From Candidatus Sabulitectum sp. (GTDB lineage Bacteria; Fermentibacterota; Fermentibacteria; Fermentibacterales; JCC-6), in NCBI GenBank assembly GCA_023145375.1, contig JAGLDY010000051.1, positions 1 to 64,000 on the forward strand: DNA of 64,000 nt, given 5' to 3'. The notes beneath the pieces are model-generated. The model was given only the letters and a program-made list of their open reading frames with translations, was not told where the DNA came from and did not search any database. Position numbers and translations under genes: made by a program. How positions within the stretch are numbered: the stretch's first letter is position 1; every line of letters begins with the position of its first letter. Below are positions 17,083 through 33,128 of this stretch, one piece after another.

Positions 17083-18162
17083 TTGAAAATATCCTTTGTT
17101 ATGCTGGGGCTCAAAGACCACAGTACAGGTGGCTATCACTTCAATTTCAAAATGGTGGATGCTCTACGGAACGCAGGGCACGATATTGATATTGTACATT
17201 TTACAACAATACCTCAGAGGATCAGAGGTTCTCGTGCAGGTGGTTCGTTCTACATACTCAGACGGGTGTTGAAGTACAAGCCAGATCTGATAGTAATTAG
17301 TAAAAGTTATGTATTCATGATCCCTCTCAGGCTGCTCCTCTCTTTTCGAAAGTACCCGGTATTGTATCTGGACCACCTGGAGTGGCATGGAAGTACCGGT
17401 CTTATCCACCGGATAAGACGTTTATTTGTGTACTGGTTTCTTTCCAGCGGGAAGAGAGTATGGGTGAACAGTCGCAGTACTGCCACAGATGTGGTATCCC
17501 TTGGAATACCAGAGGAAAAGATATGTATTATTCCACCTGGTTTTCACAAGTTCGATCTTAACCCTGCGAACAGGAGATCAAAACCTGTAAAGATCCTTTC
17601 GGTAGGTACCATATGTCCCAGAAAGGACCAGCTTACTTTGGTGAAAGCCTGCGGTATGTTGGGAAACAGGGAATTCCAGCTGCTGATCCCAGGGGATGAA
17701 ACAACCCACAGGGATTATGTGGAGGCTGTTAGAAGGGAAGCAGACAGTGATCAACTTCGCGGTAAAGTTTCTTTCCCCGGCCACATCTCTCAGGATGATC
17801 TCCGGGATATGTATGATCAGAGTCACATACTTGCCAATTTGTCTCACTGGGAAGGATACGGGATAGCAGTGGCTGAAGCTTTGTGGGCAGGCCTTCCGGT
17901 TCTTGCTGCTGACGCAGGCTCCGTTCCCGAGCTTGTAACTCACGGAGAGAATGGTTTTTTAATACCGCCTGGAGACGTGGAAGGCTGTGCAGATCACTTG
18001 AAAAAATTGATTGATGATGATACACTGAGAGATAGAATGTCGGAAACTGCTCACAAAAGAGCTGAGAAGTATTTTACATGGTACGACACAGGAAGGGAGT
18101 TTGTTAAACTTGCAGAAGAAACTGCTGGTAGCAAAATTCGGCGGGACCAGCCTTACCAGTGA
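17083..18162 (+). CDS. GT4 family glycosyltransferase
   Basis: A 359-residue enzyme starting at TTG 17083 (KISFVMLGLKDHSTGG). The glycine-containing acceptor loop is followed by a C-terminal GT4 domain: ILSVGTICPRKDQLTLVKA, FPGHISQDDLRDMYDQ, HWEGYGIAVAEALWAGLPV (the E-x7-E donor-binding pair) and GSVPELVTHGENGFLI. It diverges from the three-glycosyltransferase operon and overlaps the start of lysC by about 60 nt in another frame, so the two are coupled. Confidence 0.86.
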   Translation: MKISFVMLGLKDHSTGGYHFNFKMVDALRNAGHDIDIVHFTTIPQRIRGSRAGGSFYILRRVLKYKPDLIVISKSYVFMIPLRLLLSFRKYPVLYLDHLEWHGSTGLIHRIRRLFVYWFLSSGKRVWVNSRSTATDVVSLGIPEEKICIIPPGFHKFDLNPANRRSKPVKILSVGTICPRKDQLTLVKACGMLGNREFQLLIPGDETTHRDYVEAVRREADSDQLRGKVSFPGHISQDDLRDMYDQSHILANLSHWEGYGIAVAEALWAGLPVLAADAGSVPELVTHGENGFLIPPGDVEGCADHLKKLIDDDTLRDRMSETAHKRAEKYFTWYDTGREFVKLAEETAGSKIRRDQPYQ

Positions 18163-19297
18163 AGAGGATCGCAATACTGCAGTAGATCATTGCAGAAGTC
18201 TTCTTCAGGAAGCAGAAAGACTGGTTGTAGTTGTTTCTGCAATGGGGCGCAGTGGTGACCCCTATGCAACAGATACCCTCCTGGACCTTGTCTCAACTGG
18301 ATCAAGCACTCAGGAGAAAGACAGGCTGATGGTGTGCGGAGAGGTCATAAGCGCTCTGGTCATGGCTTCAACTTTCAGGGATAACGGTATTACCGCTGAA
18401 GCACTCACCGGCTGGGAAGCTGGAATATCCACCGATGGCATATCGGGTAATGCACGGATCGTAAGCATTGATACTGCAAGGATCGAAGAATCTCTTTCCA
18501 GACACCGTGTGGTGGTTATTGCTGGTTTTCAGGGACTTGCTCCAATGGGTCATTTAAATACGCTGGGCAGAGGGGGTACCGATACTTCAGCGGTGGTTCT
18601 CGGTGTCGCCCTGAATGCAGATGAGGTTTTTCTCTACAAGACAGTTGATTCGGTTTACACTGCTGATCCGGAGAAAGTACCGTCCGCACAGGAGCTGAGT
18701 GTAATTTCCGCTGAGGATCTGAGACAGATGGCGTGGCAGGGTGCTAAAGTTGTCCACCCTAGAGCTGCGGAGGCCGCTCAGGCTTCCGATCTTTCGTTGA
18801 AGGTCAGGTCTTTTCACAGTGGCAGAGTTGTTACAGAGGTTGTATCGGAACCACTTGAGGATAACAGATATATAGTGGGTGTCGCAGCTGGACAGGTGGT
18901 AACTGGATTTACCGTTTCAGGCTCCGGGACGCCATCCTCATTCTTTGCTGCTCTTTTCAGAAAGATCGCAGACCGGGGAATATCCATGGACATGTTCAGT
19001 GTCTTTGGCTGTTCAACTGCATTTACCGTGCCTCTGGCATCTACCGGAGAGGTGAGGCAACTTCTTGATGGTATGGAGATCGTATACACAACAATCAGCC
19101 CATGTGTAAAGGTATCAATTGTGGGTGCCGGTATGCATGGTCTTCGCGGTGTTATGGCCAGATTCTGTGAAGCACTGGAGCGCGCAGAGATAGATGCTCT
19201 GCAAACTGTTGATTCTCATGCCACCATAAGTGCCCTGGTTCTTCTTGATCAGAGGGACATAGCTCTTCAGGAACTGCACAGGGAGTTTATTGAATGA
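18101..19297 (+). CDS. lysC: Aspartate kinase
   Basis: A 398-residue monofunctional aspartokinase, the first step of the lysine/threonine/methionine pathway from aspartate. The N-terminal kinase domain has VAKFGGTSL, VVVVSAMG and GRGGTDTSAVVLG. SVYTADPEKV and WQGAKVVHPRAAE lie in the nucleotide and Asp-binding regions. Residues about 250-398 hold the two ACT repeats for allosteric feedback (SFFAALFRKIADRGISMDMF, then VSIVGAGMHG). The start is TTG 18101 or, with better spacing from the GGAAGGGAG site, TTG 18110. The gene begins inside the 3' end of the glycosyltransferase gene and overlaps uppP by 4 nt. Confidence 0.92.
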   Translation: MLNLQKKLLVAKFGGTSLTSEEDRNTAVDHCRSLLQEAERLVVVVSAMGRSGDPYATDTLLDLVSTGSSTQEKDRLMVCGEVISALVMASTFRDNGITAEALTGWEAGISTDGISGNARIVSIDTARIEESLSRHRVVVIAGFQGLAPMGHLNTLGRGGTDTSAVVLGVALNADEVFLYKTVDSVYTADPEKVPSAQELSVISAEDLRQMAWQGAKVVHPRAAEAAQASDLSLKVRSFHSGRVVTEVVSEPLEDNRYIVGVAAGQVVTGFTVSGSGTPSSFFAALFRKIADRGISMDMFSVFGCSTAFTVPLASTGEVRQLLDGMEIVYTTISPCVKVSIVGAGMHGLRGVMARFCEALERAEIDALQTVDSHATISALVLLDQRDIALQELHREFIE

Positions 19298-20073
19298 GCC
19301 CACTGGAAGCCTCCATTCTAGCTGTTGTTCAGGGTCTTACAGAGTTTCTGCCTGTTTCCAGTTCCGGTCATCTTGCAATGGCATCAAATCTTCTATCTGT
19401 CCCTGAGGGCGGTCTGGCTTTTGATATCGTTCTTCACCTGGGGACCCTTGTTGCCGTGTTTGTCTTTTACTGGAAGGACATTGTCAGTCTGCTCCGGGGC
19501 ATCTTTCTCCGGGAAAGAAAAAGTCTGCTTCTTGGTCTTGCCCTGGTTGTGGGGACAATACCTGTCGCCATTGCGGGTTTTCTCTCCGGTGATCTGATCG
19601 AAGCTCTCCGAACAAACATGTTCTTTATTTCCTGCGCTCTGGCTTTTACAGGAACTATCCTTTTCTTTTCCGGAAAGATACCTGTGACTGCGGAGCCTGG
19701 TATTACCTTTAAAAGGGGAGTACTGGTGGGCCTTGCCCAGACCCTTGCTATCCTTCCCGGTGTTTCACGGTCTGGAACCACTATCTGCACCGGTCTTTTT
19801 GTGGGACTATCAAGAGAGGAAGCGGCTAGATTTTCGTTCCTTCTGGCCATTCCAGCTATTCTCGGAGCAGCGGTGAAGGAACTTCCATCAGCAAGCTGGG
19901 ATATCCCTGCCGGGAACATTCTTATTGGTTTCGCCGTATCTGCAGTGGTGGGGTTCGGCGCACTTTCCCTTCTTGTTAAGTTTGTCAAACAGGGTAAGCT
20001 TACCGGTTTCGCCTGGTACTGCTGGACCATAGCGCTGGCAGGTCTTGCATTTTCTTTGCAGGGAGCAGTGTGA
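19294..20073 (+). CDS. uppP: Undecaprenyl-diphosphatase
   Basis: A 259-residue inner-membrane protein with about 8 helices. It carries both UppP/BacA signatures: LTEFLPVSSSGHLA (15-28), with the catalytic Glu17 and Ser/His residues, and LPGVSRSGTTICTG with its conserved Arg. It dephosphorylates undecaprenyl diphosphate to recycle the lipid carrier of peptidoglycan and surface glycans, which fits the glycosyltransferases and flippase nearby. Its ATG overlaps the lysC stop (ATGA), so it is translationally coupled to an unrelated metabolic gene. Confidence 0.93.
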   Translation: MSPLEASILAVVQGLTEFLPVSSSGHLAMASNLLSVPEGGLAFDIVLHLGTLVAVFVFYWKDIVSLLRGIFLRERKSLLLGLALVVGTIPVAIAGFLSGDLIEALRTNMFFISCALAFTGTILFFSGKIPVTAEPGITFKRGVLVGLAQTLAILPGVSRSGTTICTGLFVGLSREEAARFSFLLAIPAILGAAVKELPSASWDIPAGNILIGFAVSAVVGFGALSLLVKFVKQGKLTGFAWYCWTIALAGLAFSLQGAV

Positions 20074-20117: not shown

Positions 20118-20540
20118 GTGTTAAGAGTGAGTATTGATAAGTTCATAACGGAATGTTCTGTGCTCAGACTGGGTATGATATCCCGGGGTGAACCTTACAT
20201 AGTTCCTCTGAACCATGTTTACGGAGATGGTACTGTGTACTTTCACTGCGCCAGAGAGGGCAGAAAGATAGATGCACTCCGAGCAGATCCGCAGGTGTGT
20301 CTTGAGTTTGATGTAATGCATGGGGTCAGCGTAGAAAAGCAGACAAGCTACTACACAAGTGTCATTGCCCGGGGTACTGCGCAGTTCGTTTCCGAGACGG
20401 ATGAAGCAAAGAGAATTCTGGAAATGATCTGCCTGAAGTATCTGGACAGCTCTCCAGTTATCACAGATGACATGGCTGAAGCAACAACCGTTGTTGCCGT
20501 ACGAATTGACAGTGTAACCGGCAGGGAGAAAAAAGGTTGA
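20118..20540 (+). CDS. Pyridoxamine 5'-phosphate oxidase-like (FMN split-barrel) protein
   Basis: A 140-residue protein of the Nim/PPOX-like split-barrel family. Diagnostic segments are VLRLGMISRGEPYIVPLNHVY, TVYFHCAREGRKIDALRADPQVCLEFD and a later ARGTAQFVSETDEAKRIL. Members bind FMN or related cofactors as dimers and reduce varied substrates. The start is GTG 20118 after AAAGAGAGAA; GTG 20127 is an alternative. Its TGA stop overlaps the TTG start of the TPR-barrel gene, a coupling with an outer-membrane protein that has no obvious explanation. Confidence 0.8.
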   Translation: MLRVSIDKFITECSVLRLGMISRGEPYIVPLNHVYGDGTVYFHCAREGRKIDALRADPQVCLEFDVMHGVSVEKQTSYYTSVIARGTAQFVSETDEAKRILEMICLKYLDSSPVITDDMAEATTVVAVRIDSVTGREKKG

Positions 20541-23302
20541 TCTTCTTAATTGCGTTGTTGTCCGCGTGGCCTTCAGAGTGGTATCAGGCATACTCACTCC
20601 TGAACTGGGACAGTATGGAAATGATATCTTCCGGCTACAGTGACTCTGCTGTTGATCTTGCAGTGCAGGCTATTTCTCAGTTTGGAAGCGGGAAAGGGAA
20701 TCCTCTTGAAACTGCCGGGGACGCTGTGGCACTGGACAGTACAGATCACAGGACATGGACAGCACTTGCATTTGTTGGTATGGAACCTGATTCAGCCGTA
20801 ATGGACAGCTTGTTTTCCAAAGCCTTCAGTCTTGTTTCCGGGGTTGATCCTGTTCTCAGCGAGTCCTACGGGTACTGGTTGCTTACCATGGGAAACAGTG
20901 CAGATGCGGTGGTTCATTCAAATGCTTCCCTGGAGGCAGACTCTTCATTCGGCCCCGGTTGGCTCACTTTGTCAATGGCTCTCACTGATGAAGAGAGGAT
21001 AAGTGATGCTCTCGCGGTTTCCGAAGAAGGCGTCAGAAGATTGCCTGATTGTATTCCCCTCCTTTACCAGTATGGACAGGTTCTTGATCTATCCGGGGAT
21101 GCAGCTGGTGCCATAGCTGTCTACAGAGAAATAATACACCGTGACTCTACAATGATATCTGCTTATGCAGATCTCGGACTCCTCCTTGAGAGTGTAAAGA
21201 GGAACGGGGAAGCCATCAAGACATACAGGGAGGTTCTTCGGATCCGTCCGGAATACGGCTGGGCGTGGGGTCAGCTCGCATCCTGTATGCTGGAGGAAAG
21301 TCGACCGGAGCTTGCAGACAGTTTCTTTCAAAGATCCCTGGAGATCTCTCCGGATAACCCGTGGGCTCTCTACCAGCTTGCACGGTTAAGAACAGCTGCA
21401 GATCCTCAGTATGCCAGAGAACTGCTTGAATCGGCTGTTCAGCTGGATCCGGATTACCTCCAGGCCTGGCAGGAGCTTGCTTTTCTCTATGAGGCCGGGG
21501 AAAACCTCTCTCTTGCGGAATCTGCCCTGCAAAGGTGTATTGAACTGAACCCGGAACCCTGGTTGTATGGCGAGCTGGGCTGGATTCTTGAGAGTATGGG
21601 AAGGCATCCTGAAGCGGCTGAAGTTTACGAGACAAGTATTTCAGTGGATCCACAGTACCTCTACGGCTGGCAGCGCAGGGGGGGCATCTTCTCTATTGAA
21701 GGAGATAACATTTCTGCTGCCCGGTGGTACACTGAGGCTATCCTTGTTCTTGATGAAGAAGATGCCTGGATATGGGGAGAACTTGGTAATCTGGCTGTGG
21801 CGGAGGGTCTGGTGGATTCCGCGGAACACTGTTTTCTCACTGCTCTTGAACTGAACCCTGATTACTCTTCCATATGGCTTGATCTCGCAAGAATAGAACG
21901 GATAAATGGGGAGCTTTACCGGTCTCTATCTTCTCTTGGACAGTACCTGTCCCTGAGCAGTGATTCCGCAGTGGCAGCAGCGGAAAGAATACTGCTCCTG
22001 GAAAGTATGAATACAGGAGCCAACACGGATTCTCTTACAGTAGAGATGCTTGAGAAGTGGCCTGACGGCTGGATATCTGCCGGGTGGAGTGCTTTCGACG
22101 GCTCTTACTCTTCTCTTGCCCTTGAATTTGCACTCAGGGCATTCAGTTCTTCTCTGGAAACTCCATGGGAGCTTATCAATCTAGGTGAGTTGTTCGGGGC
22201 TCTTGATCTCCCGGAGAAGCAGAAGCAGTGTTACCAGCTTGCTTCCGAAAAGGAAACAGATGATCTTCATGTGCCCGTTCGCATAGCTGATTTCTACTAC
22301 CGAGTGGACATGCAGGAGGAAGCAATTGAGCTTCTTTCGGAGGCTTATGATTCTTATCAGTGGGATGAGACTCTTACCACTTCCCTTGCTGAGGCTTATC
22401 TTTTCAACAACCAGCTGAACAGTGCGGAAGAGCTTCTTCTGCAGGTCGTGGATAGAAACCCGCTCTCGGTCTATACTATTTGCTATCTTGGGCTTATTGA
22501 GGAGAATCGGGGAAATACCACAGGAGCTCTTGACAGATACCTGGAAGCGCTGCGGATAGAACCGGGGTACGCCTATGCGGAGAGCAGATTGAGATTTATC
22601 ACCAGCGACAGATATGACCCTGAGTTTCAGCGAAGGGAAGAAGAGCTGCTTCGCTGGAATGTCTGGGTGGATGTTTCTTCCACCGGAGGCAACATTGATG
22701 AGCAATACTATGGCGGTGGCGGAGGTTTCTCTGTAAACTACGGGGAGCGGGGGAGTTCTGTCTCCCTGGACCTCAGTGGCCGGTCTGAGATCAAAGAAGG
22801 TAAGGACATCCGCAAAACAGCCTGGGCCTCCCTTTCCGCGGAGCATTTCATTACAGAACATCTGTATGCAGGAGCCAGTTCCAGCTGGGACAGGCAGCCC
22901 ATCACAGTGCGTCCGTGGCAGGTGAGTTCGTATCTTGCCGCAGGGTGGAAAAGCTGGCCCGCTTCATGGATATGGATAGCTCCGGAAACAGGAGCCGGCC
23001 TGGTAAACACTAAATGGAGTACAGAGCAGGGAAGAGCCGACGAGTTGACAGCATACGCATCTTTCAGCACATGGGCATCAAGCCCGGTTTCATGGCTTCC
23101 ATCCCTATGGCTTTCAGGAAGTATTTATCTTCCACCGCAGAACACCGACAGAATTGTTGCCGACGCGGTTGGAGAACTTGAATTCGATCTCCCTGGTCGG
23201 ATCTCTCTGGTTTTAGGCACTTCTCTTGACTACACCCGCACGCCTGTGGTTGAAAGCTGGGAAAAGCTCGACTCAGAGGTGTACCTCAGACTGAGGTTCT
23301 AA
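20537..23302 (+). CDS. Exported TPR protein with C-terminal outer-membrane beta-barrel-like domain
   Basis: A 921-residue protein starting at TTG 20537. The N-terminus (IFLIALLSAWPSEWYQ) looks like a short signal peptide. Residues about 40-700 consist of roughly 17-18 TPR units, many with the classic W.LG/Y..AL.A pattern (for example GWAWGQLASCMLEE, GNTTGALDRYLEALRIEP). Residues about 705-921 are different: Gly/Ser-rich alternating beta sequence (GGGGGFSVNYGERGSSVSLDLSG), with repeated aromatic-ended strands and a terminal VYLRLRF. A final Phe in an alternating strand is the usual BAM recognition signal. I infer a periplasmic TPR superhelix anchored by a barrel of about 10 strands, comparable in design to PgaA/AlgE-type export proteins, though homology is unproven. 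Confidence 0.75.
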   Translation: MIFLIALLSAWPSEWYQAYSLLNWDSMEMISSGYSDSAVDLAVQAISQFGSGKGNPLETAGDAVALDSTDHRTWTALAFVGMEPDSAVMDSLFSKAFSLVSGVDPVLSESYGYWLLTMGNSADAVVHSNASLEADSSFGPGWLTLSMALTDEERISDALAVSEEGVRRLPDCIPLLYQYGQVLDLSGDAAGAIAVYREIIHRDSTMISAYADLGLLLESVKRNGEAIKTYREVLRIRPEYGWAWGQLASCMLEESRPELADSFFQRSLEISPDNPWALYQLARLRTAADPQYARELLESAVQLDPDYLQAWQELAFLYEAGENLSLAESALQRCIELNPEPWLYGELGWILESMGRHPEAAEVYETSISVDPQYLYGWQRRGGIFSIEGDNISAARWYTEAILVLDEEDAWIWGELGNLAVAEGLVDSAEHCFLTALELNPDYSSIWLDLARIERINGELYRSLSSLGQYLSLSSDSAVAAAERILLLESMNTGANTDSLTVEMLEKWPDGWISAGWSAFDGSYSSLALEFALRAFSSSLETPWELINLGELFGALDLPEKQKQCYQLASEKETDDLHVPVRIADFYYRVDMQEEAIELLSEAYDSYQWDETLTTSLAEAYLFNNQLNSAEELLLQVVDRNPLSVYTICYLGLIEENRGNTTGALDRYLEALRIEPGYAYAESRLRFITSDRYDPEFQRREEELLRWNVWVDVSSTGGNIDEQYYGGGGGFSVNYGERGSSVSLDLSGRSEIKEGKDIRKTAWASLSAEHFITEHLYAGASSSWDRQPITVRPWQVSSYLAAGWKSWPASWIWIAPETGAGLVNTKWSTEQGRADELTAYASFSTWASSPVSWLPSLWLSGSIYLPPQNTDRIVADAVGELEFDLPGRISLVLGTSLDYTRTPVVESWEKLDSEVYLRLRF

Positions 23303-24584: not shown

Positions 24585-27500
24585 ATGAAAAATGCATTTA
24601 TACCCTTGTTTTTTGTTTTGTTATCCGTTTCCTACGGCCAGACAGTTTTTGCACCAGTTACCGGTGAACTGCTGGAACACTGGAATAACACTTCCAGAAC
24701 TGCAAGGCCGATGGTTTATTATTTTGATACTGATAACCTTTCAAATGGCATCTACGAGGTTGTGATCACCGGTATTGAAGTTGAACCTGGCTTGCTTGAC
24801 ATGTTTCTGCTGGGGAAAACCCATGACAGTGAGATTCCTCTTCTTCTGGGCACCAGTGAATACAGAGGAAATTACAACTTCGCAAAATCAGATTCAAGAT
24901 ACAACGAAGAAGAAGATGAGATCAGTCTGTATTTTCAGATGCCGGGCAGTGCAAGCTACTATGCTGTCTGTTACCGGTGGGACATTGATTCCGGGTCGCT
25001 TGAGCTTCTGCGATACTTTTCCGGAGACCCGTCAATGGAAGCTCTGGAGAGAGCAGACAGCCTTATGACTCAGGGGAAAATTGCAGAGGCAATACGCGAG
25101 ATTGATGAAATGTTTTACCCGGGCAACTATTACGATTCCGATGAAATGTTCGTCCGCCTGCTAAGAAGCGTCAACCGGGCTGCAGGGGAAACTGGAGCTG
25201 CTGGCAATTTCGGGGAAGCCGTGAGTCTGTTCGGAGATCTTGCCGGTTTTCTTCATACAGACAGAGAATGGTTTACCGCTTTTTCAGACAGTCTGGACTA
25301 TGTGAATTGTGATTATTCGGAATACATGGGTCTGGGCGAGTATGCAATGATCATGAACGATTACGCATACTACCTTGAGCAGACAGGTGATCTTGACAAA
25401 TCACTGATCGTTCTAAGGAAAGTTCTTGATCTTAAACCGGAACGGATGGTTGCTCATCTCAACATTGCGGATGTTCTGTGGGCTCTTGGAGAATTTGTTG
25501 AAGCGCAGGAGCACTACGGTGTTTATACTGGTATGATGACAGACAGGGAACTGACCCATCAGATACCGGGCTATGTTCAGGAAAGATTGGCCGAAGATCC
25601 GCTGTCATTGGTTGATCCGGTAACGATCAGCATTCTTTCAGAGCACCTGTGTCCAATAGAAACAATGCGCTGGGATCCAATACTGATAGACGGATATCAG
25701 ATGTGGAGAGCAGCGGGATTCAGAGTGCAGCTGAACCGACATCTTCCACGAAATATGGTTTCGTTCAACGATGAGCTGTGGACGGTTGATATTGATGCTG
25801 ACGGATATCTGGAGTCCTGTGAGGAGGCTGTTTCCAGTAACAGTTTAATCATGACCACAGATGCATTGGACGGTTCCAGAGAAATGTCTCTGATAGCCTG
25901 TACTGAGCAGTCGGATACAGCATGGACATGTTCTCTTGAAAGAACAGACAGAGAAGGCTACTGGTCTCCCTGTGTTACAGAGCTTTCCGATGGCGGGTAT
26001 ATTGTCAGTAACTCGCCTGATGCCTTTGTTCCTTTTACAGAGATTCAGCGCATATCATCCGACGGAGAGGCTCTGTTTCACTACTCAATGAGTTCCATGT
26101 ATCTTCTGGACCTGCCTGAAGGCAGCGGTGAGATCTGGCCGCGCATCCAGTCCTTCAGAGAGACATCTGCCGGTAACATTCTTGCCTGCGGTAAAGTTCA
26201 GGAGTGGGTGACTGATCCGGATCTTTATTTTGTGTGTCTTCTTGATGGAGATACCGGTATTCCTTTGTGGAAAATTACCGGTGCCGGTCTTGGCGAGGCC
26301 ACAATTTACGATGTTGTTGAAACTTCATCGGGTATGATTGTTGCTGTTGGTGCAACAGCTGTGAGTTTTTTTCCTGAAGGTCAGTACTATTCAATGTGGG
26401 GTCGGACGCTGCCATTCATTGCTGTTATTGATGGAACAGGAGTTCTTCAGAAGACGATAGTGTTTGACCTGGGTCTCACAGATCTGTTTTCCAGTATTAT
26501 TGAGAAAGAATACTCAGAGAATGAATTTCTCATTGCCGGTTCAGATTCTTTATCAAACCAGATGGTGTTTCTCAGGGCGATAATTCCAACAGATATCGAA
26601 AGCTGGGAAAGAGGGTCAGACACACCTGTTTTACTGATCGATAGTGACGGTGATGAATACAGTCAGAATGAGTTCGGAGTATTCCCGCTGGCTGTTAATC
26701 GTCTGCCCTTCGGCAACGCTGGACCGGCAAGCGGCATGGAATTTGTAATCATACCTTCCGGAAGCTTCAACATGGGCGACCAGGGACAGCACCGTGTTAG
26801 TATTGATAGCTTTGAGCTTATGACCACCGAGGTTACACAGGGTATGTGGAAGGAGGTTATGAATGAGAACCACAACAGCGGAAGTGATTATGGTGTTGGG
26901 CCACTAAATCCCGTACACAATGTAACCTGGAATGAATGCCGGAATTTTATTGCTGAACTGAACAGAATTGACCCGAATTCAACCTACAGATTACCCAGTG
27001 AGTCAGAGTGGGAATATTCCTGCAGAGCTGGAACAACCACTGATTACTACTGGGGCAACACCACTGTATCCACAGTTGCAGAGACGTATTGCTGGCTGAG
27101 TGAGAACTCCGGTAACAGTACTCAACCGGTAAGGCTTCTTGAACCCAATCCGTGGGGCTTGTTTGATATGCTTGGAAATGTTTCCGAGTGGTGTGCCGAT
27201 GTGTACACAAGCGATCTGAACGATTGCCCTGCAGACGGCAGTGCGTTTGCGGGTTCAGGACACGGTCGTGTTTCGCGAGGCGGCAGCTTTTCCTTGACCG
27301 CCGTACGACCTGTTTCGACACGATCTTCCGGCAGCCCTGACTGCCATTATGTTTATACCGGGCTTCGAGTTGCAAGGGACGCAAGAAAAACTCCTGAGGA
27401 AGTTGTGACATTCTTTATGGATATGGTGTTTAGCAGCGATGGGGAAGATATTATCAGCGGTTTGTCCGAAGAAGAGCTTGCAGACTTCAATGCCGTTCTC

Positions 27501-27767
27501 CGTGTGATGAAGCTGGCTCCGGATGAAATGGCCGCAGAATTATCTTCCGGAGGAATTGAGATAACTGCTGAAGATATCGAAAATATGACAATTGATGAAT
27601 TCGTGATGGTTATGCTGGGCAGTGCGGAAATTGAGATTGGAGAAGCAACAATCAATGGGGAAACAGCTCTTGTACCAGTTACCATTGAAGGTGAGACGGA
27701 GGAAATTCAACTTGTTCTGGAAAACGGTCAGTGGGTTGTTGTTGATAATGGTACAGACCTGTTTTGA
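24585..27767 (+). CDS. Large exported protein with TPR-like region and FGE-sulfatase-like domain
   Basis: A 1060-residue protein. Residues 1-20 form a signal peptide (FFVLLSVSYGQ). A beta-rich N-terminal part is followed by helical TPR-like units (about 255-330, MVAHLNIADVLWALGEFVEA) and a propeller-like middle. Residues about 715-932 are an FGE/SUMF1-type domain: MEFVIIPSGSFNMGD, NPVHNVTWNEC, YRLPSESEWEYSCRAG, LFDMLGNVSEW and RVSRGGSF ... GLRVAR. The copper-binding Cys pair expected just after GGS is absent (FSLTAVRPVS instead), so formylglycine formation is unlikely; a binding or structural role is more probable. An acidic C-terminal domain follows (935-1060). The start has GGAGG 8 nt upstream. 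Confidence 0.78.
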   Translation: MKNAFIPLFFVLLSVSYGQTVFAPVTGELLEHWNNTSRTARPMVYYFDTDNLSNGIYEVVITGIEVEPGLLDMFLLGKTHDSEIPLLLGTSEYRGNYNFAKSDSRYNEEEDEISLYFQMPGSASYYAVCYRWDIDSGSLELLRYFSGDPSMEALERADSLMTQGKIAEAIREIDEMFYPGNYYDSDEMFVRLLRSVNRAAGETGAAGNFGEAVSLFGDLAGFLHTDREWFTAFSDSLDYVNCDYSEYMGLGEYAMIMNDYAYYLEQTGDLDKSLIVLRKVLDLKPERMVAHLNIADVLWALGEFVEAQEHYGVYTGMMTDRELTHQIPGYVQERLAEDPLSLVDPVTISILSEHLCPIETMRWDPILIDGYQMWRAAGFRVQLNRHLPRNMVSFNDELWTVDIDADGYLESCEEAVSSNSLIMTTDALDGSREMSLIACTEQSDTAWTCSLERTDREGYWSPCVTELSDGGYIVSNSPDAFVPFTEIQRISSDGEALFHYSMSSMYLLDLPEGSGEIWPRIQSFRETSAGNILACGKVQEWVTDPDLYFVCLLDGDTGIPLWKITGAGLGEATIYDVVETSSGMIVAVGATAVSFFPEGQYYSMWGRTLPFIAVIDGTGVLQKTIVFDLGLTDLFSSIIEKEYSENEFLIAGSDSLSNQMVFLRAIIPTDIESWERGSDTPVLLIDSDGDEYSQNEFGVFPLAVNRLPFGNAGPASGMEFVIIPSGSFNMGDQGQHRVSIDSFELMTTEVTQGMWKEVMNENHNSGSDYGVGPLNPVHNVTWNECRNFIAELNRIDPNSTYRLPSESEWEYSCRAGTTTDYYWGNTTVSTVAETYCWLSENSGNSTQPVRLLEPNPWGLFDMLGNVSEWCADVYTSDLNDCPADGSAFAGSGHGRVSRGGSFSLTAVRPVSTRSSGSPDCHYVYTGLRVARDARKTPEEVVTFFMDMVFSSDGEDIISGLSEEELADFNAVLRVMKLAPDEMAAELSSGGIEITAEDIENMTIDEFVMVMLGSAEIEIGEATINGETALVPVTIEGETEEIQLVLENGQWVVVDNGTDLF

Positions 27768-29020: not shown

Positions 29021-30232
29021 CTACAGTGCAATCACTTTGACTGAATTCACAGTTCCTCTGATCGTTGAGGTTACGATCAGTACTCCTGTGGGAACATTCC
29101 CCAGGTGGAACTGCCGTGTTTCATTTTGAGCTATTACAGTTTCAGCAGTCCATACTGTTCTTCCCGACAGATCAATAGCACTGAGAGCAACGGTTCCACC
29201 TTCTGAACAGGTCACTGTAACTGATGGTGAGGGTGAGGGCGAGTCAACTACGCTCAGAATGTGACTGTGCAGAGGCGTATCAATTCCCGATTGGTCAAAG
29301 CCGATAACTTTTATCCTGTTGTCTCCAGTGCATACCACGAAGAGCCTTTCTCCGTCAGGGTGAACGGCGATATTTGCCGGGCCGCCGGAAATGGGGATAT
29401 CTCCTTTCCAGGTCAAATCGCTTGTTCCATATACGGTGACAGTGTTCTGCTCCGGGCAGACCCCGTACAGATAGGGTAAATCAGGTAGAACAACCATTTT
29501 ATCAGGAGCATCCTCAGGGCATGGTATTGTTCCATACACTGTAAGTGATGGAATATCCATGACTCCTATCAGGTTCCAGGAGCGGCAGGAGAGGAACAGC
29601 TTTGTGCCATCACCTGAAACAGTACAGCAGTAACTGTCCATGCCGCTGTTGAAATGCGTAAGAAACCCGGTGGAAGGGTTTATCACCGCTTCCTGCGAAC
29701 TGCCGTCATCCGCAGCAAACAGCATATCCTGCAAAGGAGTTACAGCAAGGGAGTTTATCTCTTCACCTGCCCAGAAACACTCCTCAACCATTTGAGCTTC
29801 TGTATCTATCACAGTGAGCATACCGGTTTCATGGGAAAGATAAATCGTATTTTCTTCAGAGCAGAGAACCATGTCTGTGGGTGAGGGCTGGACTGTAAAA
29901 GAGCTCTCCACTGTAAGCGTTGATGTGTTGATCACGTGTACCACATTGTTCTCCTGGTCAGCCACATAGAGATAGTCACCGGAAGCATCGCATTCCAGGG
30001 TAACCGGTTCCCCGTCAATTGCGACAAGCCCCGCCAGGGAGAAATCCGAGAAGCCGTTGATATCAATTGCAGTGGCGAACCCGAATTTTACAGCGACATA
30101 GGCCCTGCTGCCGTCAGGGGAGAGGCACACATCCGAAGGATTCTGACCCACCGAGACAGAACCCAGGAGTGTATCCGGGAACTGCGCCACTGCAATGGAA
30201 GCGATAATCAATACGAATGCTGGAAATTTCAT
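29021..30232 (-). CDS. Secreted YVTN/YncE-like beta-propeller with C-terminal sorting-like domain
   Basis: A 403-residue protein with signal peptide (KFPAFVLIIASIAVAQ). Residues about 25-320 form a seven-bladed-type propeller with repeats such as NPSDVCLSPDGSRAYVA, ASGDYLYVADQENN and GPANIAVHPDGERLFVV. Residues about 330-403 form a small beta domain (VALSAIDLSGRTVWTAE ... GNVPTGVLIVTS ... VKVIAL) that resembles the FlgD-like or Por/T9SS C-terminal modules of FCB bacteria. This supports cell-surface sorting but is not proof of a type IX system. It follows the ABC permease by 16 nt with GGAG before the ATG, so it belongs to that operon. Confidence 0.7.
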   Translation of the reverse strand: MKFPAFVLIIASIAVAQFPDTLLGSVSVGQNPSDVCLSPDGSRAYVAVKFGFATAIDINGFSDFSLAGLVAIDGEPVTLECDASGDYLYVADQENNVVHVINTSTLTVESSFTVQPSPTDMVLCSEENTIYLSHETGMLTVIDTEAQMVEECFWAGEEINSLAVTPLQDMLFAADDGSSQEAVINPSTGFLTHFNSGMDSYCCTVSGDGTKLFLSCRSWNLIGVMDIPSLTVYGTIPCPEDAPDKMVVLPDLPYLYGVCPEQNTVTVYGTSDLTWKGDIPISGGPANIAVHPDGERLFVVCTGDNRIKVIGFDQSGIDTPLHSHILSVVDSPSPSPSVTVTCSEGGTVALSAIDLSGRTVWTAETVIAQNETRQFHLGNVPTGVLIVTSTIRGTVNSVKVIAL

Positions 30233-30248: not shown

Positions 30249-31532
30249 CTATCTGCGTAACAGTTCTGTTACCGGTGTGGCAAGTATTTTTCTGAAAAAG
30301 AACCAGGCTGATACAGTTGAAATAACAAGAACAAGACCAAGCCCTGCAGACAACCAGCCAACAGGGTAGACCGCCAGTGAGCTTACAGCCATTTTCAGCA
30401 CAGGAAGCAGATTCAGGAGCGTGGAACTTACAATGTACGATAGCCCGCAACCCAGCAGACCACCGAACACTGTGCTGAACAGAGACATGAAAAATATCTG
30501 GAAGGCGAAAATGTACACAAGTCTTTCCCGCCTGGTTCCCAGAGCCACCAGAACACCCAGTGCATAGGATCTGTTCTTAAGGTCTGCAACAAGAGTGTGT
30601 ATGGCACTGGCCACAGCGGAGAACAGGATAGCTGCCGCAAGAGCTCCCAGGGCTGCAGTTACAACCCCAACCAGGATCTCAGCCTTCTGAGCTATGCCCC
30701 GGCGGGTCTCTGCGGAAAGCCCCATTTCCTCTGCATACCGAACGATCTCCGGTACATCTTCGGCCTCGCTGGCAGTTACCATAAGGGCGCTGTATGTGTG
30801 CCTGTCATCCGGCAGGTATAGGGCGTTCACCTCTTCTACGAACTCGATTGGAACCGCCAGGGCAAAGAGTGCCATGTTTCTTGAAGTGCCCACGATCTCT
30901 GCTCTGATGTTTATGGGTGGAGACTGCAGTGAGGCTATGGAACTGCTGCCTACATTCACACGGACCTCGAGACCGATGACTCCTTCAGGGGTAAGACCCA
31001 TGAGTCCGTTGGATTCAGCGAAGCCTGCATTGTAGAGAATAAGAAGGTTCTCGCTGAGGATAATGGGAAGAGGTTTCATTGAGCTGTCTGCAAGTGTGTA
31101 GTTCCAGTCGATGTACTGAAGCATGGAATCCGGTACGAAAGCACTGGAGACACCCTCAAGGGTAATATCTGTGTAGTAATTCTGCCCTCCCAGGAGTCCT
31201 CTGAGGTATGCAGGAACATGGGCATAAACCTGTGGGTCTATCCTTTCCACCTGGGGCATTGCAGCAAGAGAATCCATTGTACTCTCAGTGATCTCAGTCC
31301 CTCCTCTTTCCGTCTGGAAGAAACCGGCCTGAACACCCATGGGTGTAATCCGGACCTGTTCCTCAGGAAGATCAGAGGAAAGGAATCTCTGGAGGATGTT
31401 GCCAACTCCAAGCCCTATGGAGATGAAGAAAACAAGAAGCAGAGAAGCAATGAGCAGCATACCCTGACTGAATACATAATCTTTCCAGTGACCGCGGTTC
31501 CAGAGGGAGATCGCTTTACGCATGTTTTTCAT
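30249..31532 (-). CDS. ABC transporter permease, FtsX/MacB family
   Basis: A 427-residue inner-membrane protein. One N-terminal helix (about residues 20-42) is followed by a periplasmic domain of about 230 residues and three C-terminal helices (FtsX domain), the MacB/LolC-like topology. The start ATG 31532 has GAGGGAG 6 nt upstream and overlaps the ATPase gene by 17 nt. The frame is open 24 codons further upstream without supporting signals. It pairs with the ATPase at 31516. MacB/LolCDE systems use mechanotransmission to move lipoproteins or peptides rather than classical substrate translocation. Confidence 0.85.
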   Translation of the reverse strand: MKNMRKAISLWNRGHWKDYVFSQGMLLIASLLLVFFISIGLGVGNILQRFLSSDLPEEQVRITPMGVQAGFFQTERGGTEITESTMDSLAAMPQVERIDPQVYAHVPAYLRGLLGGQNYYTDITLEGVSSAFVPDSMLQYIDWNYTLADSSMKPLPIILSENLLILYNAGFAESNGLMGLTPEGVIGLEVRVNVGSSSIASLQSPPINIRAEIVGTSRNMALFALAVPIEFVEEVNALYLPDDRHTYSALMVTASEAEDVPEIVRYAEEMGLSAETRRGIAQKAEILVGVVTAALGALAAAILFSAVASAIHTLVADLKNRSYALGVLVALGTRRERLVYIFAFQIFFMSLFSTVFGGLLGCGLSYIVSSTLLNLLPVLKMAVSSLAVYPVGWLSAGLGLVLVISTVSAWFFFRKILATPVTELLRR

Positions 31533-32187
31533 GAAGAACTCCCTCTCTGAGTTCAAGAACTCTGTCTGCTCTGGAGAGTATCCTCTTTGAGTGGAGGACT
31601 GCAACTATGGCAAACCCTCTCTCCTTTCGCAGTGTGTCAAGCAGATCGAAGAGGTTTTCCTCGCTTTCCTCATCCAGGCTTGCTGTGGGCTCATCCGCCA
31701 TTAGAACCCTGGGGTTGTTCACCAGTGCTCTTGCGGAAGCCACCCTTTGTCTTTCGCCCCTGGAGAGGAATCGTGTTGGAGTGCTGTCGTTTCTGAGGCC
31801 GAGCCTTGAGATGATGGTTGCTGCATCATCTTTTACCGCTTCTGTGTCTGTTCCGCTGAAAACAGCTGGAAGAAGAACGTTGTCCAGAGCGTTGAGATTG
31901 GGAAGCAGGTGAAAGTCCTGGAAAATGAAACCCAGGAATTCCCTTCGGAGTTCCGCAAGTTCCGAAGATGATGCTTCCACCGCATTTACCCCGTTGATAA
32001 GCAACTCGCCTTCGAAAGTGGGGTCGAGAGCCCCAAGCACGCCAAGCAGTGTTGATTTGCCAACTCCACTTTTGCCGGTAACAGCCACAAATTCACCCTC
32101 CAATAAACTGAAATTTGTCCCGTTGAGTACTTTAAGGTTCTCGAAAGTCTTAATGATGGAGCCGGCGCTGATCAAAGATCTACTCAT
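31516..32187 (-). CDS. ABC transporter ATP-binding protein, LolD/MacB type
   Basis: A 223-residue ATPase. Walker A is GKSGVGKST, the signature region is FLSRGERQRVASARAL (LSRGE in place of LSGGQ), Walker B is VLMADEPTASLD, and an H-loop His follows (AVLHSKR). The length and close linkage to an FtsX permease place it in the MacB/LolD/FtsE group. The ATG at 32187 overlaps the lipoprotein stop (ATGA). The open frame extends 74 codons further upstream across the lipoprotein gene but has no family sequence. Confidence 0.88.
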   Translation of the reverse strand: MSRSLISAGSIIKTFENLKVLNGTNFSLLEGEFVAVTGKSGVGKSTLLGVLGALDPTFEGELLINGVNAVEASSSELAELRREFLGFIFQDFHLLPNLNALDNVLLPAVFSGTDTEAVKDDAATIISRLGLRNDSTPTRFLSRGERQRVASARALVNNPRVLMADEPTASLDEESEENLFDLLDTLRKERGFAIVAVLHSKRILSRADRVLELREGVLHEKHA

Positions 32188-33023
32188 AGAACACCCCCCC
32201 CTACCAGCTGAAGTAGAAGAGTGAAGCAGCTGTCCGTGTTTATCTGTGTATCTGATATGGCGAGTTCTACCGAGGTTACTCCTCCATCCCGCCTGGCAAG
32301 GATCACTCCTGCATGAAGAGGTTCCCCGGTGTCCGCCTCCGGCCATGAAAGGGAGAGAGAAAGGGCAGCAGGCTTCACCGTCTCGGCTATATCCTTGTAG
32401 TCTGTCCACCAGGGTATCTGCCTCTCGAGAGGAAGAAGCGATACGAATCCGAAGAGATTCCCTGGAAAAAGAATGGTGATATGTCTGTCTTCAGGTATCA
32501 CCTCAAGAAGAGAAGCGTCTGCCTCGAGGGAATCATCCTTCTTCAGATCCAGCCAGTTGCCAAGTGTGATATGAGGAGCCGGACCTATGTAAACAGCGGT
32601 CCATCCGTCCTTTCCTGTTACTGAAGCTCTTGCATACCCGTGCTGGGATATCAGGTCTACCCTGTTTTCCTCCTGCATGGGGTCCAGGTCAAGAACCCTG
32701 GCGGCAAGGGCAGTTGCATACTCGGTGGAAGTGCTGCGTGAGAGAATAAGAAGCTGTGGTTCCAGTGTTGAAATATCCACACCAACAATGGAAATTCCCA
32801 GAGGACCCTTCTTAAGCAGGGAATCAGCAAGAACAAAACCGCTGAAGTGATCTCCCGCAAAGGATGTCAGCCCGGAATTCAAACCAGGCTCAATATGTAT
32901 GTGCAGCAGTGCTGTGCCTGGGACAAGGTGCAATTCAGGAACCGGATCTTTCCCGCCGCAACCGGAAAGCAGAATTGAACCCGTTAAGATGACTAAAAAA
33001 GTAAAAAGTACTATCTTTCTCAT
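32184..33023 (-). CDS. Putative lipoprotein of unknown function, ABC operon
   Basis: A 279-residue protein with a lipoprotein signal: MRKIVLFTFLVILTGSILLSGC, lipobox LLSGC with Cys22, followed by GGKD. Asp is not at +2, so retention at the inner membrane is not predicted. The mature region is soluble, beta-rich and of no family I recognise. ATG 33023 is preferred to the GTG at 33044 because the signal peptide then starts correctly and CAGGAAAC precedes it. As the first gene of the operon with a MacB/LolD-type ATPase and permease, it may be a partner or the cargo of that transporter. Confidence 0.7.
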   Translation of the reverse strand: MRKIVLFTFLVILTGSILLSGCGGKDPVPELHLVPGTALLHIHIEPGLNSGLTSFAGDHFSGFVLADSLLKKGPLGISIVGVDISTLEPQLLILSRSTSTEYATALAARVLDLDPMQEENRVDLISQHGYARASVTGKDGWTAVYIGPAPHITLGNWLDLKKDDSLEADASLLEVIPEDRHITILFPGNLFGFVSLLPLERQIPWWTDYKDIAETVKPAALSLSLSWPEADTGEPLHAGVILARRDGGVTSVELAISDTQINTDSCFTLLLQLVGGGVL

Positions 33024-33128
33024 GTTTCCTGCAGCTCCGATCACAATTTTTGTTTTACAATATTCAGTATGAATTATGACTAAAAAATGTTCCTGTAAAC
33101 AGGTACATGGTTTTCACCGGTTTCAGCC

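Follow-up and report, generated by a model that had tools for sequence, protein, structure and literature searches.

A TPR solenoid joined to a divergent DUF481 barrel beside UppP in Fermentibacteria: a probable outer-membrane-anchored periplasmic scaffold

Introduction

What kind of protein is encoded by a long TPR-rich gene lying next to an undecaprenyl-pyrophosphate phosphatase gene in Candidatus Sabulitectum, and what might it do at the cell envelope? The question arose in a stretch of 64,000 nucleotides (the window), for which a sequence-only reading had proposed a possible new outer-membrane protein of PgaA-like design, opening a series of exported proteins that could act together at the cell surface. 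This study analysed the gene, its predicted structure, its family and its neighbourhood in relatives. The features concerned are collected in Table 1.

Table 1. Features of the locus and of related sequences (positions in the window unless another locus is named)
Feature	Position	Strand	Remarks
Aspartokinase gene	18101..19297	+	conserved upstream neighbour
BacA/UppP undecaprenyl-pyrophosphate phosphatase gene	19294..20073	+	conserved neighbour
PNPOx/Nim-like flavoprotein gene	20118..20540	+	found only within the genus
Shine-Dalgarno-like AGGGAG	20523..20528	+	8 nt before the TTG start; read from sequence
Gene for the TPR-DUF481 protein	20537..23302	+	921 aa; TTG start; 4-nt TTGA overlap (20537-20540) with the upstream stop
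Hydrophobic N-terminus, probable signal peptide	20537..20569	+	residues 1-11; short, no basic n-region
TPR-like helical solenoid	20573..22603	+	residues 13-689; 41 helices, 17 regular TPRs
Predicted 12-stranded DUF481-type beta-barrel	22649..23296	+	residues 705-920
Most conserved segment, SSWDRQPxTVRPWQ(V/I)SSY	22883..22933	+	residues 783-799
FGE-sulfatase domain protein	24585..27767	+	1060 aa; TPR-like repeats
Lactonase-type propeller protein	29021..30232	-	weak C-terminal Por_Secre_tail match
FtsX-type ABC permease	30249..31604	-	convergent conserved neighbour
286-aa protein	32184..33044	-	lipobox-like LLSGCG N-terminus; no Pfam match
Second paralogue family members	L125:5492-7420, L126:127-2010, L127:1768-3669, L128:8945-10855, L131:6622-8583, L132:6693-8246
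Barrel fragment	G013:C13:71866-72285		two in-frame stops

The gene and the TPR solenoid

The reading frame proved to be exactly as first described, a TPR array followed by a beta-rich domain ending in phenylalanine (...VYLRLRF). The overlap with the flavoprotein gene, which had been remarked upon, is present and is an ordinary coupled stop/start. A promoter scan performed no better than shuffled sequences (12 found against 15.7 expected). Nearly all relatives keep the frame open. G011 (L051) has it split, and as several neighbouring genes are split likewise, this points to sequencing error. Judged from the N-terminus, which is hydrophobic in the relatives examined, export of the protein is likely, even though this segment is unusually short and, in the window protein, lacks both lysine and arginine.

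Pfam TPR models matched the N-terminal part repeatedly (best E 4.6e-32), with the best stretches lying within residues 195-642. The full-length AlphaFold model, built on a 14-member orthologue alignment, places 41 helices before residue 690, mostly with pLDDT around 90 or higher. These amount to about 20 helix pairs, among which 17 helix-A elements keep the regular 34-residue TPR spacing, so that the earlier count of about 17 units is correct for the regular ones. The TPR_Slam model also matched (38.5 bits, residues 195-262), but no Slam barrel was matched and identity with the Slam translocon was rejected. Fold searching with the full-length model was dominated by TPR and helical-repeat proteins, for example the TPR domain of O-GlcNAc transferase, and the barrel was therefore modelled and searched alone.

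The barrel domain and its family

Both the full-length and the barrel-only AlphaFold models give the C-terminal domain 12 strands, the latter with pLDDT 89.5 and pTM 0.82. The nearest solved structures of the barrel-only model were outer-membrane barrels, namely VhGalP (TM values 0.56/0.60), NanC (0.62/0.68), PcoB and autotransporter translocators, a result that bears out the small barrel first suggested and rejects a soluble beta-sandwich. The amphipathic pattern of the strands is not due to chance, since the inside/outside alternation of hydrophobicity averages 1.24 compared with 0.64 +/- 0.13 in shuffled strands, none of 5000 shuffles reaching the observed value. The domain is thus, by prediction, a 12-strand outer-membrane barrel. 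A phmmer search of PDB sequences with the barrel and a PHROGs search returned nothing useful.

Conservation is higher in the barrel (0.70) than in the TPR array (0.60). The loop at residues 787-794, between strands 5 and 6, is strongly conserved, and it is predicted to be extracellular provided that the TPR arm lies in the periplasm. For the barrel as a whole, the contrast in conservation between outside and inside is weak, being reached by 16 of 211 circular shifts; the notable feature is therefore this single loop.

The protein had been called possibly new; for the barrel this does not hold, as the domain belongs to DUF481 (PF04338), a putative outer-membrane family (TCDB 1.B.75) with 12 strands and a mean size of 277 aa (PMC4827864). 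The window protein itself scored 13 bits, below the Pfam cut-off of 21.1, although DUF481 was the sole Pfam match of the barrel alone. Several orthologues exceeded the cut-off at the same C-terminal domain (e.g., 37.5, 36.5, 36.3 and 35.5 bits), including G038, G040, G037, G018, G041, G039, G015, G007 and others. When the barrel alignment was compared by hhalign with a canonical DUF481 alignment, which included one protein from the same genome (at C53), the probability was 98.7% with E 2.5e-15 over 201 of 206 columns, and hmmsearch with the canonical model recovered the orthologues. Homology extends over the whole barrel, with GN in the first loop, G819, P903, D912 and L919 common to both. From these sequence comparisons the barrel is taken to be a divergent DUF481 domain. 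It differs from the TCDB members in the roughly 690 TPR residues in front of it and in the WDRQPxTVRPWQ loop, which is lineage-specific. Literature searches on DUF481 and on the outer membranes of Fermentibacteria yielded no function for the TPR-DUF481 protein.

Distribution and gene neighbourhood

Near full-length orthologues were found in 37 of the 42 genomes of the order that were examined, indicating a long-standing envelope gene and not a recent insertion. The named relatives belong to Ca. Sabulitectum, Ca. Aegiribacteria, Ca. Fermentibacter and other Fermentibacteria. Outside the order, no DUF481-type frame longer than 500 aa was detected in about 340 genomes at the search thresholds used; one weak match came up in G057 (E 0.0023, a 743-aa frame). 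The long fusion therefore looks lineage-specific within the genomes sampled. A shorter tandem copy often lies directly downstream in genus g2 genomes and in a small number of others. Several genomes also carry members of a second paralogue family of Fermentibacteria, about 520-650 aa long, which combine a repeat-like N-terminal part with the same type of barrel. The small, nearly complete genome G013, from the same family, is missing the full gene and carries the barrel fragment listed in Table 1.

Aspartokinase and UppP genes lie directly upstream in all 20 relative loci, and the FtsX-type ABC permease is convergent downstream in 17 of the 20 within the stretch covered. The conserved order is accordingly aspartokinase, UppP and the TPR-DUF481 gene, followed by the convergent FtsX-type ABC transporter. 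No BacA-family copy other than this UppP was found in the genome. The surrounding block is syntenic up to EF-Tu in many relatives, however, so its conservation is partly general synteny and the position beside UppP may be a matter of frozen gene order and not of function.

The remaining neighbours are less constant. In some members of the genus the flavoprotein gene is cut short or was not detected at all (a 56-aa match in G012, nothing in G006), as if it were decaying there. The propeller and FGE genes (in two loci each) and ORF405 (in one) were rarely detected in the 20 relative loci at E 1e-6, so that the proposed series of proteins acting together is not supported; of the gene order for which conservation had been in question, the aspartokinase and UppP part stands, while the flavoprotein, propeller and FGE genes drop out. 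The propeller protein has a weak C-terminal Por_Secre_tail match (E 0.067), possibly a sorting domain, and the FGE-sulfatase protein scored 61.7 bits against GldK, below the cut-off of 350. The 286-aa protein with the LLSGCG N-terminus is conserved beside the ABC transporter. Elsewhere the genome carries three Omp85 genes; a single search found no match to LptD, which does not prove its absence.

Possible functions

The TPR-DUF481 protein is probably an outer-membrane-anchored periplasmic TPR scaffold. The computed basis of this reading comprises the TPR solenoid, the 12-strand barrel of DUF481 descent, the Fermentibacteria-wide conservation and the UppP linkage; export, orientation and the docking role are inferred. 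The protein would be exported by Sec, and the Omp85 machinery of the genome would insert its C-terminal barrel into the outer membrane. The solenoid would then reach into the periplasm and, close to the mouth of the barrel, may dock partner proteins or a polymer of the envelope on its concave surface. Against the scaffold stand the short hydrophobic N-terminus without a basic n-region and the low score of the window protein itself to PF04338.

Several known proteins have a comparable layout. BcsC and PelB likewise place a long N-terminal periplasmic TPR solenoid before a C-terminal outer-membrane barrel, with 19 predicted TPRs each compared with 8 in PgaA (PMC9384988), and in BcsC the solenoid, which is followed by a 16-strand barrel, appears to bind cellulose along its length (PMC11379886). 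The array seen here had been thought unusually long, which these proteins contradict, but its combination with a DUF481 barrel does look lineage-specific. NfrA of E. coli is similarly composed of a signal sequence, a TPR-rich region and a C-terminal outer-membrane pore region (PMC8669469). By analogy with BcsC, PgaA and NfrA, the best reading of the layout is an outer-membrane anchor bearing a periplasmic TPR dock.

Whether the resemblance extends to polysaccharide export, as in PgaA, BcsC, PelB or NfrA, with the TPR arm binding a nascent glycan and the small barrel passing it, is a different matter, and we consider this unlikely. The order of the parts is the same, the array is close in length to those of BcsC and PelB (PMC9384988, PMC11379886), UppP and GT4 glycosyltransferase genes are nearby, and the oligosaccharide porins NanC and VhGalP are among the nearest solved barrels. 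PgaA and BcsC barrels, however, have 16 strands (PMC9384988), compared with 12 here in a domain whose only Pfam match is DUF481. The PgaA-like design suggested earlier thus holds for the layout of TPRs before a barrel but not for membership, the TIGR03939 match (37.1 bits against a curated cut-off of 366.65) being confined to the TPR region. BcsC works in a synthase complex and NfrA partners the synthase NfrB, whereas a Pfam scan of the neighbours here found no synthase-type glycosyltransferase, and the GT4 genes close by do not belong to the core gene order shared by all relatives. Polymer export by the TPR-DUF481 protein is possible, with no synthase identified in the locus and a barrel unrelated to those of the exporters by the tests made.

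A porin for small solutes or oligosaccharides, with the TPR arm holding a periplasmic enzyme or a binding protein at the barrel mouth, appears improbable. The closest folds include KdgM-type porins, and strong conservation of the predicted extracellular loop would be expected of a substrate site; against this, the TPR-DUF481 gene has no conserved neighbours for degradation or uptake, and across the barrel as a whole the conservation contrast is weak. That the C-terminal domain is instead a soluble beta-rich domain is very hard to credit. The sub-threshold DUF481 score of the window sequence speaks for it; the outer-membrane barrels at the top of the fold search, the amphipathic strand alternation and the DUF481 homology speak against it.

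Significance

The TPR-DUF481 gene is real and well conserved; its barrel is of a known family, and the fusion is uncommon and apparently lineage-specific. What is new is the combination of domains, while the kind of protein is already known. In this gene a barrel of a widespread family, DUF481, is joined to a long periplasmic TPR arm, and the gene has stayed beside UppP throughout one bacterial group. It is conceivable, though doubtful, that the DUF481 barrel and TPR arm form a lineage-specific Fermentibacteria device for export or envelope assembly that handles an undecaprenol-linked polymer, its carrier being recycled by the adjacent UppP; if so, this would, to our knowledge, rank with the earliest functional assignments for a DUF481 barrel. 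Should the scaffold prove to be a dock or an exporter, DUF481 would gain a testable function, and the TPR-plus-barrel exporter layout would have arisen also with an unrelated, smaller barrel.
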